Origin: Mesorhizobium sp. B2-1-1
Lineage (GTDB): Bacteria; Pseudomonadota; Alphaproteobacteria; Rhizobiales; Rhizobiaceae
DNA: 64,000 nt
NCBI RefSeq assembly: GCF_006442975.2
Contig: NZ_CP083954.1
Location: forward strand, 1,929,501-1,993,500
Reading direction: 5' to 3'
Shown: piece by piece, positions 27,239 to 30,655 of the stretch
How the letters are laid out: every line of letters starts with the position of its first letter
How positions within the stretch are numbered: the first letter of the stretch is position 1
Translations under genes and position numbers: made by a program
Notes under the pieces: generated by a model
Databases searched by the model: none
Seen by the model: the letters and a program-made list of their open reading frames with translations, nothing else
Told to the model about the DNA's origin: nothing

Positions 27239-30130
27239 CTACTCGGCCGCCTGAACGCGATGTGCCTGGATGATGGCGCGGATCTCAGAGCGGCAGGAGC
27301 CGCAATTGGTGCCTGCCTTCAGCGCGGCGCCGATGGCTTCCACGTTCGTGCAGCCGGAAGCCACCGCCGCCGTGATCTGCTTGATCCCGACGTTGAAACA
27401 GGAGCAGACGGTCGCGCCGGCATCGGGCCGTTCGGCACCGGCGCGGCCGGCGACGATGCGGAAGCGCTCGCGTTGGCTGGCATGGGCCTCTTCGAGCTGC
27501 TGCGTTGCCCATCCGCGCGACACGGCGACCGGGCCGGGAGCGACGAACAGGGCGCCCGCGAGCTGTACGCCATCGAAGGCGGCGATGCGATGCTGGCCGG
27601 CATCGCGGTCGTGATAGGCGAGTATTTCGGCATCGGTCGAGGCGCCGAACAGGGATTGGGCAAAAGTCGTCCAGTCGATTTTGTCGTCTGCAAAGGCGAG
27701 CTCGACCCGCCAGCCATCCCTGCAGCGGGCCACGGCCCAATAGTCGCCGGCGACCGCTTCGGGCCTTTGTCGGGTCACGGCGAAGCCGAACGCCATCGCG
27801 GCGAATTTCTCGATGTGCACCGCGACGTGCTTCAGTGCCGGCTGGCCGGAAACCGGGTCGGTGAGCGGCGCCGTGAGCGTGTCGAGTCGGCCCTTGGCGG
27901 CGAACTGGTCCGTCCAGTGCATCGGCGCAAAAACGCTGCCCCGGCGCTGGCGGGACGTGATCAGCGCGCGCACGAGCACGGCGCCGCGCGGGCTGGAAAC
28001 GCGCGCGATGTCGGCGTCGCCGATGCCGTATCGCGCGGCGTCGTCGGGATGAATCTCGACGAAGGGTTCGGCGATGTGCTGCGACAGACGCGGGCTTTTG
28101 CCGGTGCGTGTCATGGTGTGCCAATGGTCGCGGACACGGCCGGTGTTGAGGATGAGGGGGAATTTCTCGTCCGTGCGGGTTTCCGTGACAGGGCGGACGG
28201 CGATGAAGCGCGCCTTGCGGTCGGGCGTGTAGAAATTGCCGTCGGCGAAGAAGCGGGTGTTCGGTGGCCCTGCTTTATCGTTCTCCGGTTGGGGCTCAGC
28301 TTGAACGTTCCCCTCCGAGAGATGTCGAGCCCAGGCGCCCCCCTCTGTCCTGCCGGACATCTCCCCCTCTAGGGGGGAGATCGGCAGTTTTGTCGACGGC
28401 GCTCGTCCTGCGGTATCGGCGATTGGCGAAGGCCGTCGTGGCATCCAATCTCCCCCCTTGAGGGGGAGATGGCCGGCAGGCCAGAGGGGGGCGCCTGGGC
28501 TCGGCGCCGGCCATTGGAATGGCGCAAGCGCTTCGTAAGCTTTCTCATCGACACCGGCATACCAACCAATATCGAAATCGCGCGCGCCATCATTCTCGAA
28601 GCCCGACAGCGCCGCGTGCTCGGCGAATATCCCGGCCGGCGCGTCATAGGAAAACGCCTCGCCAAACCCCATCCGCCGCGCCACTTCCGCAATGATCCAC
28701 CAATCTGGCCGCGCCTCGCCGGGCGCGGCCAGGAACGGGCGCTGGCGCGAGATGCGGCGCTCGGAATTGGTAACGGTGCCGTCCTTCTCGCCCCAGGCGG
28801 TGGCCGGCAGCCGGACATGGGCATGGCGCACCGTGTCTGTGTCGGCCTGCACGTCCGACACCACCACAAACGGGCAGGCCTTGATCGCTGCTTCGACGGC
28901 GTCGGCATCGGGCATCGAATCGACAGGATTGGTGGCGAGGATCCACAGCGCCTTGATCCGCCCGTCGGCGACCGCCCGGAACATGTCGACCGCTTTCAGG
29001 CCGGGCTTTTGCGCGATGTCAGGTGCATTCCAGAAGCGCTTCACGCGTTCGCGATGCCCCGAATTTTCAATCTCCATATGCGCGGCCAGCATGTTGGCCA
29101 TGCCGCCGACCTCGCGTCCGCCCATGGCGTTGGGCTGGCCGGTGACCGAGAACGGCCCGGCGCCGGGCCTGCCGATGCGACCGGTGGCGAGGTGGCAATT
29201 GATGATGGCGTTGACCTTGTCGGTGCCGGACGACGACTGGTTCACGCCCTGGCTGTAGACCGTGACAGTCTTGGCGGTCGCGGCGAACAGGCCGTAGAAG
29301 CGGGCGAGCTCGTCCTCGCTCAGGCCCGTGGCGGCAGCGATGCCGGCAAGGTCGAGTGCCGAGGCGGCGAAAAGGGCTTGTCCGAAGCCGGTCGTGTGCG
29401 CCGTGATGTAGGCGCGGTCGAGCGCATTGTGCTGGCCGAGCCAGGCGAGCAGGCCGGTGAACAGGGCGACGTCGCCATCGGGCGCGATCGCCAGGTGCAT
29501 GTCGGCGATATCGGATGTCATGGTGCGGCGCGGGTCCACCAGCACGATTTTCATCTCCGAGCGCTTCTCACGCGCGGCAGCTATGCGCTGGTAGAGCACG
29601 GGATGGCACCAGGCGAGATTCGAGCCGACCAGCACGATGAGATCGGCAAGCTCCAGATCCTCGTAGGTTCCGGGCACCGTGTCGGAGCCGAAGGCGCGGC
29701 GATGGCCGGCGACCGAGGAGGCCATGCAGAGGCGCGAATTGGTGTCGATATTGGCCGAGCCGATGAACCCCTTCATCAATTTGTTGGCGAGATAATAGTC
29801 CTCGATCAGCAACTGGCCGGAGACATATAAGGCGACCGCATCCGGCCCATGTTCGGCAATGGTTTGCGAGAAGGTCGACGCGACAAGATCGAGTGCCTCA
29901 TTCCAGGAGGCGCGGCGGCCGTGGATCTCGGGGTGGAGCAGCCTGCCGTCGAGGCCGATGGTCTCGGCAAGAGCAGAGCCCTTGGAGCAGAGCCGGCCGA
30001 GATTCGCGGGATGGTCGGGGTCGCCGCGGACCGACACCTGTCCGTCCGCGGCGACCTTCGCCAGCACGCCGCAGCCTACCCCGCAATAGGGGCAAGTGGT
30101 CCTCACCTCGCGTGCTTCGCCAATCTGCAT
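27239..30130 (-). CDS. nasA: Assimilatory nitrate reductase, catalytic subunit, with in-frame repeat insertion
   Basis: A 963-residue cytoplasmic molybdenum enzyme that reduces nitrate to nitrite. The N-terminal 4Fe-4S motif is CPYCGVGCGVL plus GRLCSKGSAL near residue 50, followed by the bis-MGD cofactor domains (NIDTNSRLCMASSVAGHRR). At the C-terminus a BFD-like 2Fe-2S domain carries CSCFNVGIKQI and NCGSCRSEI. Residues 543-602 (GAPLWPAGHLPLKGG to GEMSGRTEGGAWA) are encoded by a palindromic repeat inserted without breaking the frame, and the protein is about 60 residues longer than usual. It follows nirD by three bases and ends the nitrate operon. In other species the gene is also called nasC. 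Confidence 0.93.
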   Translation of the reverse strand: MQIGEAREVRTTCPYCGVGCGVLAKVAADGQVSVRGDPDHPANLGRLCSKGSALAETIGLDGRLLHPEIHGRRASWNEALDLVASTFSQTIAEHGPDAVALYVSGQLLIEDYYLANKLMKGFIGSANIDTNSRLCMASSVAGHRRAFGSDTVPGTYEDLELADLIVLVGSNLAWCHPVLYQRIAAAREKRSEMKIVLVDPRRTMTSDIADMHLAIAPDGDVALFTGLLAWLGQHNALDRAYITAHTTGFGQALFAASALDLAGIAAATGLSEDELARFYGLFAATAKTVTVYSQGVNQSSSGTDKVNAIINCHLATGRIGRPGAGPFSVTGQPNAMGGREVGGMANMLAAHMEIENSGHRERVKRFWNAPDIAQKPGLKAVDMFRAVADGRIKALWILATNPVDSMPDADAVEAAIKACPFVVVSDVQADTDTVRHAHVRLPATAWGEKDGTVTNSERRISRQRPFLAAPGEARPDWWIIAEVARRMGFGEAFSYDAPAGIFAEHAALSGFENDGARDFDIGWYAGVDEKAYEALAPFQWPAPSPGAPLWPAGHLPLKGGDWMPRRPSPIADTAGRAPSTKLPISPLEGEMSGRTEGGAWARHLSEGNVQAEPQPENDKAGPPNTRFFADGNFYTPDRKARFIAVRPVTETRTDEKFPLILNTGRVRDHWHTMTRTGKSPRLSQHIAEPFVEIHPDDAARYGIGDADIARVSSPRGAVLVRALITSRQRRGSVFAPMHWTDQFAAKGRLDTLTAPLTDPVSGQPALKHVAVHIEKFAAMAFGFAVTRQRPEAVAGDYWAVARCRDGWRVELAFADDKIDWTTFAQSLFGASTDAEILAYHDRDAGQHRIAAFDGVQLAGALFVAPGPVAVSRGWATQQLEEAHASQRERFRIVAGRAGAERPDAGATVCSCFNVGIKQITAAVASGCTNVEAIGAALKAGTNCGSCRSEIRAIIQAHRVQAAE
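28326..28503. repeat. Rhizobial palindromic element inserted in frame within nasA
   Basis: A 178-base element bounded by a perfect 22-bp inverted repeat (28326-28347 and 28482-28503). Inside it, ATCTCCCCCTC and GAGGGGGAGAT form further stems around a less conserved core. The same unit recurs at 30491-30655. It is read in frame as NasA residues 543-602. Confidence 0.88.
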
Positions 30131-30133
30131 GGG

Positions 30134-30463
30134 TCAGGCCGCGCGGCTTGCCAGCGCTTCGAGCGCGATGAACAAACGCTCGCCCTCGATCTTCACCGGA
30201 ATGGTGCGCACCGCGCCCTCGTCGGCGCCGAGCGCCTTGCCGGTCTCCAGCGAGATGACCCAATTGTGCAGGGGGCAGGTGACCGCCGCGCCATGCACGA
30301 TGCCCTGGCTCAGCGGCCCGCCTCTGTGCGGGCAATGATCGTCGATGGCGAAGACCTGGTCCTCGGCGGTGCGGAAGATAGCGATCTTGCCCTGCGGCGT
30401 GGCAACACAGCGCGCGCCCCGGCGGGGGATGTCGGACAGGGAGCCGATCGGTGTCCAGGTCAT
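30134..30463 (-). CDS. nirD: Nitrite reductase [NAD(P)H] small subunit (Rieske type)
   Basis: A 109-residue protein with one Rieske 2Fe-2S domain: CPHRGGPL near residue 44 and CPLHNWVISLETG near 63. It partners NirB in the six-electron reduction of nitrite to ammonium. Length and motif order match NirD. It lies between nirB and nasA: the nirB gap is filled by a palindromic repeat, and nasA starts three bases after its stop. Confidence 0.93.
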   Translation of the reverse strand: MTWTPIGSLSDIPRRGARCVATPQGKIAIFRTAEDQVFAIDDHCPHRGGPLSQGIVHGAAVTCPLHNWVISLETGKALGADEGAVRTIPVKIEGERLFIALEALASRAA

Positions 30464-30490: not shown

Positions 30491-30655
30491 GCCCAGGCGC
30501 CCCCCTCTGTCCTGCCGGACATCTCCCCCTCAAGGGGGGAGATCGGTAGTTTTGCTGATGGCGTCCGTTCTGCGAAGTTGGCGATTGGCAAAGGCCGTTG
30601 TGGCATCCAATCTCCCCCCTTGAGGGGGAGATGGCCGGCGGGACAGAGGGTGGCT
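30491..30655. repeat. Second copy of the rhizobial palindromic element, in the nirB-nirD gap
   Basis: About 165 bases, closely matching the element inside nasA: GCCCAGGCGCCCCCCTCTG at the left, CATCTCCCCCTC and GAGGGGGAGATGGCC internally, and a degenerate CAGAGGGTGG right end. The core differs at many positions. It fills most of the 208-base gap between nirB and nirD and could shape the intercistronic mRNA. It is not translated here as part of either neighbour. Confidence 0.85.

Follow-up and report, generated by a model that had tools for sequence, protein, structure and literature searches.

Palindromic repeats that are translated as part of their host protein have been described in other bacteria. 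In the passages of PMC2229807 that concern them, Rickettsia palindromic elements (RPEs) measure 105-146 bp, occupy 19 reading frames and leave the gmk product that carries one still active. Repetitive extragenic palindromic (REP) and BIME sequences of the GTAG and CGTC families are presented in parts of PMC3733652 as hairpin units, often arranged as inverted dimers, that form in-frame inserts of 20-30 residues, with two inserts per gene in some cases. Rhizobia possess repeated palindromic elements, the Rhizobium-specific intergenic mosaic elements (RIME), which are described as intergenic in the relevant sections of PMC2573895 and PMC2245857. In this study, a stretch of 64,000 nucleotides from Mesorhizobium sp. 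B2-1-1 (the window, whose positions are used below) was analysed, in which a palindromic element lies in frame within nasA, the gene for the large subunit of assimilatory nitrate reductase.

The initial annotation likened this element to the RPEs. Compared by description, without sequence comparison, the likeness to RPEs and their Wolbachia relatives fits the mode of action: a palindrome of 100-160 bp, found between genes and in frame in conserved genes whose products are apparently functional (partial text of PMC2229807). The Mesorhizobium element differs in its host, in a much higher G+C content and in two properties that the annotation did not foresee, namely synonymously frozen arms and inversion of the spacer. 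We know of no RPE with either property. Neither was found in the RPE passages of PMC2229807. With RIME, again by description, the element shares the character of a repeated rhizobial palindrome, whereas RIME are intergenic and the present family also occurs in genes. We would guess that the two families are related.

Segments that invert within genes have also been recognised. Intragenic invertons were reportedly described by Chanin in 2024, and gene-altering inversions by Milman in 2023. Portions of PMC11868660 and PMC11892184 cite intragenic inversion as a known phenomenon. The likeness lies in an invertible segment between inverted repeats within a gene, giving alternative protein sequence; in Mesorhizobium, by contrast, the inverting segment is the spacer of a REP-type palindrome that is dispersed and sits in housekeeping enzymes, and its inversion is known from comparison between species. 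The literature covered, including the available parts of PMC3733652, PMC2229807, PMC2267715, PMC1590033, PMC2573895, PMC2245857, PMC11868660 and PMC11892184, did not describe palindromes lying in frame in enzymes of Mesorhizobium, which is weak evidence of absence as subscription journals lay mostly outside this coverage; the available text of PMC3733652 has no match to Mesorhizobium and two to 'rhizob' (loop structure; Bradyrhizobium). No report joining in-frame palindromes with intragenic inversion was found in a search with most subscription papers outside its coverage. An in-frame coding palindrome is a known kind of insertion, and the variant with frozen arms and a flipping spacer appears to be new. 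We consider it probable that a REP-dimer/MITE-like palindrome (MITE, miniature inverted-repeat transposable element) resides in the nasA linker, is kept up at the DNA level by recombination between arms, and is filtered by the host reading frame.

The element in the nasA reading frame

The gene and the parts of the element are as follows.

27239-30130, minus strand: nasA, assimilatory nitrate reductase large subunit, an open frame of 963 amino acids with the element inside and four Pfam domains
28326-28503, no strand: full palindromic element, corresponding to NasA residues 543-602
28334-28495, no strand: family core of 162 bp, the spacer-length class common to most other copies
28326-28384, plus strand: arm 1, the downstream arm relative to nasA, reading ..LPISPLEGEMSGRTEGG..
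28445-28503, minus strand: arm 2, the upstream arm relative to nasA, reading ..PLWPAGHLPLKGGD..
28358-28381, plus strand: REP-like hairpin of arm 1, from a hairpin pattern search (G000:C1:1957858-1957881)
28448-28471, minus strand: REP-like hairpin of arm 2, from the same search (G000:C1:1957948-1957971)
28382-28447, no strand: variable spacer between the hairpins, of which a homologous piece is inverted in CobN, CobG and one nasA

The perfect 22-bp terminal inverted repeat and the residue range given by the initial annotation both hold: the outer 22 nt at 28326-28347 pair without mismatch with those at 28482-28503, and the offsets agree. The full arms are 59 nt each, 93% complementary and 60 nt apart, giving the terminal inverted repeats by which a MITE is recognised. 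The near-palindrome of 178 bases that had been reported is present, but the family core is about 162 bp, to which 8 bp are added locally at either end; many genomic matches span query base ~9-11 to 165-171. Folded as RNA, the core reaches -129.8 kcal/mol (z -14.8; none of 200 shuffles equally good), and as DNA it also folds far better than shuffles.

As had been stated, the NasA blocks on either side remain in frame, the gene being a single open frame with the Pfam domains Fe4S4, molybdopterin, Molydop_binding and BFD. The element falls in the interdomain linker between molybdopterin, which ends at residue 485, and Molydop_binding, which starts at residue 659. The linker is in none of the 43 listed matches to solved structures, the best-scoring stretch of each stopping at or before residue 526. 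The AlphaFold2 model of NasA has a mean per-residue confidence (pLDDT) of 82.6, with residues 551-623 below 50, and the insert is predicted to be a disordered segment.

Conservation of arms and spacer

Proportions of synonymous (pS) and nonsynonymous (pN) differences over 21 independent pairs of nasA genes gave a pN/pS of 0.163 for the core and 0.956 for the insert, which is thus neutral as protein. The nasA element is an in-frame insertion missing from most orthologues outside Mesorhizobium, in a host gene under purifying selection, as RPEs are; the non-functional nasA allele against which the initial annotation had cautioned was not found. Within the insert, pS and pN were 0.017 and 0.040 in the left arm, 0.103 and 0.073 in the right arm, and 0.360 and 0.368 in the spacer, compared with 0.281 and 0.046 in the core. 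The low pS of the arms and the free pN of the spacer thus indicate arms conserved as DNA and a spacer free as protein. Over 11 pairs of CobN, the arms had pS values of 0.100 and 0.066, the core 0.264 and the spacer 0.624, the last being inflated because of inversion.

Spacer inversion in CobN, CobG and nasA

CobN was found in 61 of 61 genomes and CobG in 60 of 61. From 30 CobN loci taken, the second of two element sites was parsed in 25, and the element was recognised by pattern in 23; L251 carries an element missed by the pattern, and L258 carries another repeat. All 23 inserts are exactly 51 codons long, with the spacer forward in 13 and reversed in 10, which requires at least 8 changes of orientation against a shuffled-label mean of 7.78. 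CobG was parsed in 26 of 30 loci (dropped were L272, for a broken frame, L273, for its arms, L274, for its anchor, and L278, in which no frame was found), and its spacer is forward in 18 and reversed in 8, with 7 changes against a shuffled mean of 7.06. Spacer orientation in CobN and CobG is without phylogenetic signal.

The spacers of CobN L240 and L241 are 93% identical when one is flipped and 58% identical unflipped; the corresponding values for CobG L263 and L265 are 90% and 52%. Over L240/L241 and the comparisons of L261, L262 and L263 with L265, identities are 87-93% flipped and 49-58% unflipped. On these identities the spacer was inverted in place in CobN and CobG, as seen between species. 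In nasA, 41 of 42 spacers share one orientation; the flipped spacer of the exception, L161, matches nasA best at only 0.76, so inversion and replacement are indistinguishable there. Both orientations of a segment between inverted repeats within a gene, the hallmark of intragenic invertons, are therefore found across genomes in CobN, CobG and, at 41:1, nasA. The copies in the nirB-nirD gap next to nasA comprise 9 forward and 2 reversed (n = 11).

Flipping the spacer in silico kept the frame open in 23/23 CobN, 23/26 CobG and 8/36 nasA inserts. Among copies of the window's own genome with known coding ones excluded, 14/33 are open both ways at the CobN offset and 10/33 at the nasA offset. The excess of CobN inserts open both ways gave a Fisher p of 2e-6, which is too small a value because the inserts are related. 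Both orientations are common in CobN and CobG and hardly occur in nasA, probably because flipped spacers are nearly always stop-free in the former and mostly stop-bearing in the latter.

Concerted arms and the history of the nasA insert

The two arm loop types agree in 33 of 36 own-genome copies, where 14.3 would be expected. In nasA, the joint codon state of the arms is LE in 30 inserts, RA in 9, RE in 2 and LA in 1 (Fisher p 1e-6), with 12 changes on the tree. An alignment of the 36 of 42 nasA inserts that are 150 nt long gave a covariation score above all 500 shuffles, resting mainly on one column pair, 29/122 (UA 26, GC 9). Pairs changed on both sides were not above shuffles (4 versus 3.2; 134 of 500 shuffles reach the count), and the local hairpins of nasA inserts showed no covariation.

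The history of the insert is nearly decoupled from that of the gene. Distances of the whole insert correlated with core distances at a Mantel r of 0.04 (p 0.25), against a mean of 0.64 and a minimum of 0.44 for 150-nt core windows; the spacer alone gave r 0.14 (p 0.011), against a mean of 0.66 and a minimum of 0.46 for equally diverged third-position windows. Between L172 and L199 the inserts diverge by 1.3%, as against 26.7% for the 60 nt upstream and 12.5% for the core. A separate observation concerns the protein P0001, a near-identical NasA that differs from the NasA of the window at 23 of 963 residues. Of these differences, 16 fall in residues 494-533, immediately upstream of the insert, as would suit a recombination patch with its end at the element.

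Distribution and age of the insert at nasA

A NasA match was present in 128 of 146 Mesorhizobium genomes. From 90 Mesorhizobium nasA loci taken, 86 were parsed (two were lost at contig ends, one to a masked run and one, in genome G029, to a broken frame). Group A comprises 79 genes that are 79-100% identical to the nasA of the window, including a more distant second copy, L222. The alignment of Mesorhizobium NasA that had been called for placed the element at one site in 42 of these 79 genes, in five cases next to a second repeat family that lies directly upstream; among the others, 8 hold an in-frame remnant by pattern (one, L216, weak), 2 the second family alone and 27 none. In the 37 genes carrying the element alone, it starts six residues past FQWP. 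It was present in none of the seven parsed group-B genes, and many genomes have an empty linker of 14 residues.

On the tree of the nasA gene core, the element occurs on both sides of the deepest split of group A, and at least 16 changes of presence are required. We read this pattern as an insertion of long standing that has repeatedly been lost in frame, although repeated gain at nasA may be the explanation instead. The annotated insertion of a palindromic repeat is thus confirmed as regards the frame, whereas a recent event in this strain is not what the genus records. Outside Mesorhizobium, most NasA among 80 named nasA loci align without the segment, as expected if it is extra to the normal protein; a pattern in which all close homologues carry a segment unlike the repeat was not found. 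Xaviernesmea oryzae and Phyllobacterium phragmitis have a relative at the same place, and linker length varies in all NasA compared.

The linker contains other repeats. The second family (PSPLRGGSARALSEAKQAGRGGV..), which looks unrelated, occurs in the nasA linker of L185, L188, L199, L203, L210, L218, L219 and L221. An extra piece of 27 residues (GEEWSAQRTESQLLGFPNDERPERQRRA-like) is nested in the element in L175 and L176 (also in P0037 and P0044), which include M. japonicum MAFF 303099. Further repeat-like peptides (SPRVRGEGRDEG; PLARTPSPQGGG) are found in the linkers of L046 and L049, from an alphaproteobacterial metagenome-assembled genome and Phyllobacterium leguminum, and on the right flank of the insert, for example in L146 and L186, short imperfect QAGRxPEG-type repeats expand beside the element. 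The nasA linker looks like a shared landing zone for repeats.

The repeat family across the genome and its coding hosts

Two features lie beyond nasA in the window.

30134-30463, minus strand: open frame of 109 amino acids between nasA and the second copy, a small Rieske-type subunit which we take to be nirD-like
30491-30654, no strand: second copy of the element, located between nirB and nirD and sharing 90% identity with the nasA copy over 164 nt

A copy in the gap had been described as almost identical; it is present, but the measured identity makes this wording slightly strong. A copy upstream of nasA also occurs in 9 further loci among the 30 of L140-L169. The four matches in Rfam (E up to 1) all scored below the gathering thresholds, and none was to a RIME family. 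Three Rfam matches on the second copy (30491-30655; two miRNA families, E ~4e-4 to 8e-4) were rejected because they look like generic strong-hairpin matches; the copy serves as a warning that strong bacterial hairpins attract weak Rfam miRNA matches.

At least 40 places in the 6.18-Mb genome match the element at E <= 0.001; scoring was limited to 40 of the 113 first-look candidates, so that the genome may hold more copies. The inner hairpin pattern (up to 2 mismatches) had 54 + 51 = 105 matches in this genome, against 0 + 0 for the reversed control pattern, and a third genomic copy is 86% identical to the nasA element. From hairpin to hairpin, the spacer spans 64-66 nt in 26 of the 27 own-genome copies for which it was determined, and 33 of the 34 nasA inserts so measured have 65 nt; the length that keeps the frame in nasA is thus the family's own. 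In every own-genome copy, between 2 and 5 of the 6 frames are free of stops, compared with 0 to 2 in most base shuffles. The order of the hairpins is reversed in some pairs, a second arrangement of the same unit (for example G000:C1:2783181-2783332 and 4646341-4646492). Unlike RAYT-linked REP sequences, the family lives in a genome without a RAYT gene (Y1_Tnp, PF01797; 0 found, the same search being positive in 5 of 14 named genomes), and RAYT was rejected as its mobiliser because of this absence.

A search for the element in other frames of the genome, which the initial annotation had suggested, showed that it is not confined to nasA. Thirty-one long frames enclosing own-genome copies were translated, and 20 of them were run against Pfam. 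Hosts confirmed by Pfam domains that flank or span the repeat are CobN, with two elements; a CobG-like precorrin-3B synthase; the pyruvate dehydrogenase E2 component (PDH-E2), whose linkers hold two single hairpins; glycyl-tRNA synthetase beta (GlyS), with two hairpins; and hydantoinase A, with one. Three further frames, an alpha/beta hydrolase-like protein, an Xre/MbcA/ParS-like antitoxin and one with an N-terminal element only, carry it outside domains, and the 11 of the 20 that matched nothing in Pfam are unlikely to be genes. With these coding copies, the gap copy and its other places, the family is both intergenic and intragenic, as RPEs are.

Searching proteins with the NasA segment gave 64 matches, namely 48 NasA, 11 CobN, 2 acetate-CoA-ligase-like proteins and a single CbiG/CobJ fusion, PBP1C and GlyS (counted by Pfam and name). 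For the two other phases, the numbers of matches were 5 and 4, obtained with differing length windows. One strand of the unit is read as (I)SPLEGEMS..EG at each of the 8 verified internal own-genome sites (p 0.008 against 1/2 and 1.5e-4 against 1/3, under a rule chosen after the fact); four of these sites have single hairpins from a related subfamily. In the five second-phase matches the element is N-terminal or joins two domains; one third-phase match joins two domains and the remainder lack Pfam matches. A bias in the reading phase of translated copies is likely on these comparisons, short of proof. In P0065 and P0070, two unrelated domains are joined through a translated copy (LemA + TPM; QueG + epimerase); these are possible fusion genes or mis-predictions.

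Discussion

In the account that we favour, a rhizobial REP-dimer/MITE-like palindrome would have inserted into the linker between two domains of nasA, no later than in the ancestor of the Mesorhizobium group-A genes. It would have stayed there as an insert of about a whole number of codons that is stop-free in the frame used, and, with the neutrality and predicted disorder described above, the living enzyme would tolerate it as a disordered surface loop. Its upkeep would be at the level of DNA rather than protein. The inverted arms, together with many identical arms elsewhere, would act as portable homology, through which recombination or template switching, between arms or between alleles, could homogenise the arms, flip the spacer in place and swap it between alleles; such exchange would produce the observed arm conservation, the concordance of the two arms, the inverted spacers and the discordant histories. 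Selection would then keep only products with an open host frame.

Several observations weigh against exchange as the whole explanation. Of 42 nasA inserts, 37 have a left arm of type GC; in the window's own genome the commonest class is TA/TA (17 of 40). For 29 of 34 nasA spacers, the nearest match is another nasA spacer. The nasA inserts are thus no random draw from own-genome copies, so that allele-to-allele exchange must outweigh conversion from elsewhere; random replacement from the genomic pool is disfavoured by this difference in arm types, the pool being one genome. Within six genomes, the closeness of the nasA and gap spacers ranks 1, 3, 3, 4, 5 and 3 of 10; conversion between these two copies was rejected as the sole source because the own gap copy is the closest gap spacer only in the genome of the window. 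CobN spacer identity falls with core distance (r -0.39), which means that vertical descent contributes too, and differing orientations were never seen within one species.

Other explanations fit parts of the evidence. Were the segment an ordinary fast-evolving NasA loop that resembles the repeat through compositional convergence, the variable linker length of all NasA compared would follow naturally; its identity to the gap copy, to the third copy and to 40 genomic copies refutes this, and with frozen synonymous sites in the arms and the same sequence in unrelated enzymes the probability left to it is negligible. That nasA is a pseudogene, an assembly artefact, a dead gene or read in the wrong frame is very improbable: genome G029 is broken in nasA and CobG and apparently in CobN (split frames), but all other parsed nasA are open, with a core under purifying selection. 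In G029 itself (L177, L272), the nasA and CobG frames are broken at the element and the CobN match is split there; that three genes with the element are affected in the same genome suggests an assembly error, probably in G/C runs.

Closer to the favoured account, the arms might be held by selection on a hairpin function in DNA or RNA (for example in mRNA stability, or as a gyrase or recombination site), with homogenisation secondary. Synonymous conservation of the arms in two genes, the strong hairpin and the covarying arm pairs agree with this, yet the element is freely lost, as the gain and loss changes on the nasA tree and the many empty linkers attest, and the covariation lies mainly in one column pair, with both-side changes near those of shuffles; we regard such selection as somewhat unlikely. 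It is also possible, though unlikely, that no inversion in place occurs and that orientation changes by replacement of the whole element through gene conversion or re-insertion, which the symmetric arms would allow either way round. Arms near-identical between copies and a nasA insert decoupled from its gene are what replacement would give, and the spacers of many neighbours with discordant orientation are no closer than those of unrelated copies (CobN L243/L244, 0.61). The pairs in CobN and CobG that match at 87-93% only when flipped speak for inversion in place, the best match between any two of 27 own-genome spacers being 0.84.

Under the account of DNA-level upkeep with a reading-frame filter, nasA compared with CobN and CobG is a natural replicated test of how selection for an open frame filters mutational inversion. 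A further reading, which we offer tentatively, is that of a coding inverton: a self-maintaining element whose flips in CobN and CobG erase the trace of ancestry, with selection purging stops from both strands, and which in nasA goes one way. If so, a bacterium may hold two forms of a housekeeping-enzyme linker at once, and most flips in nasA would destroy the reading frame, serving as an infrequent on/off lesion of nitrate assimilation.

For annotation, segments of 50-60 residues of the PLWPAGHLPLKGG..ISPLEGEMSGRTEGG type in rhizobial proteins should be recognised as translated repeats. Two kinds of conservation meet within one coding stretch, the arms being kept as DNA and the spacer left free as protein. 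The element of nasA marks a route by which repeated extragenic DNA may become a lasting, freely evolving part of an enzyme in free-living, high-GC bacteria, beyond the obligate intracellular ones.

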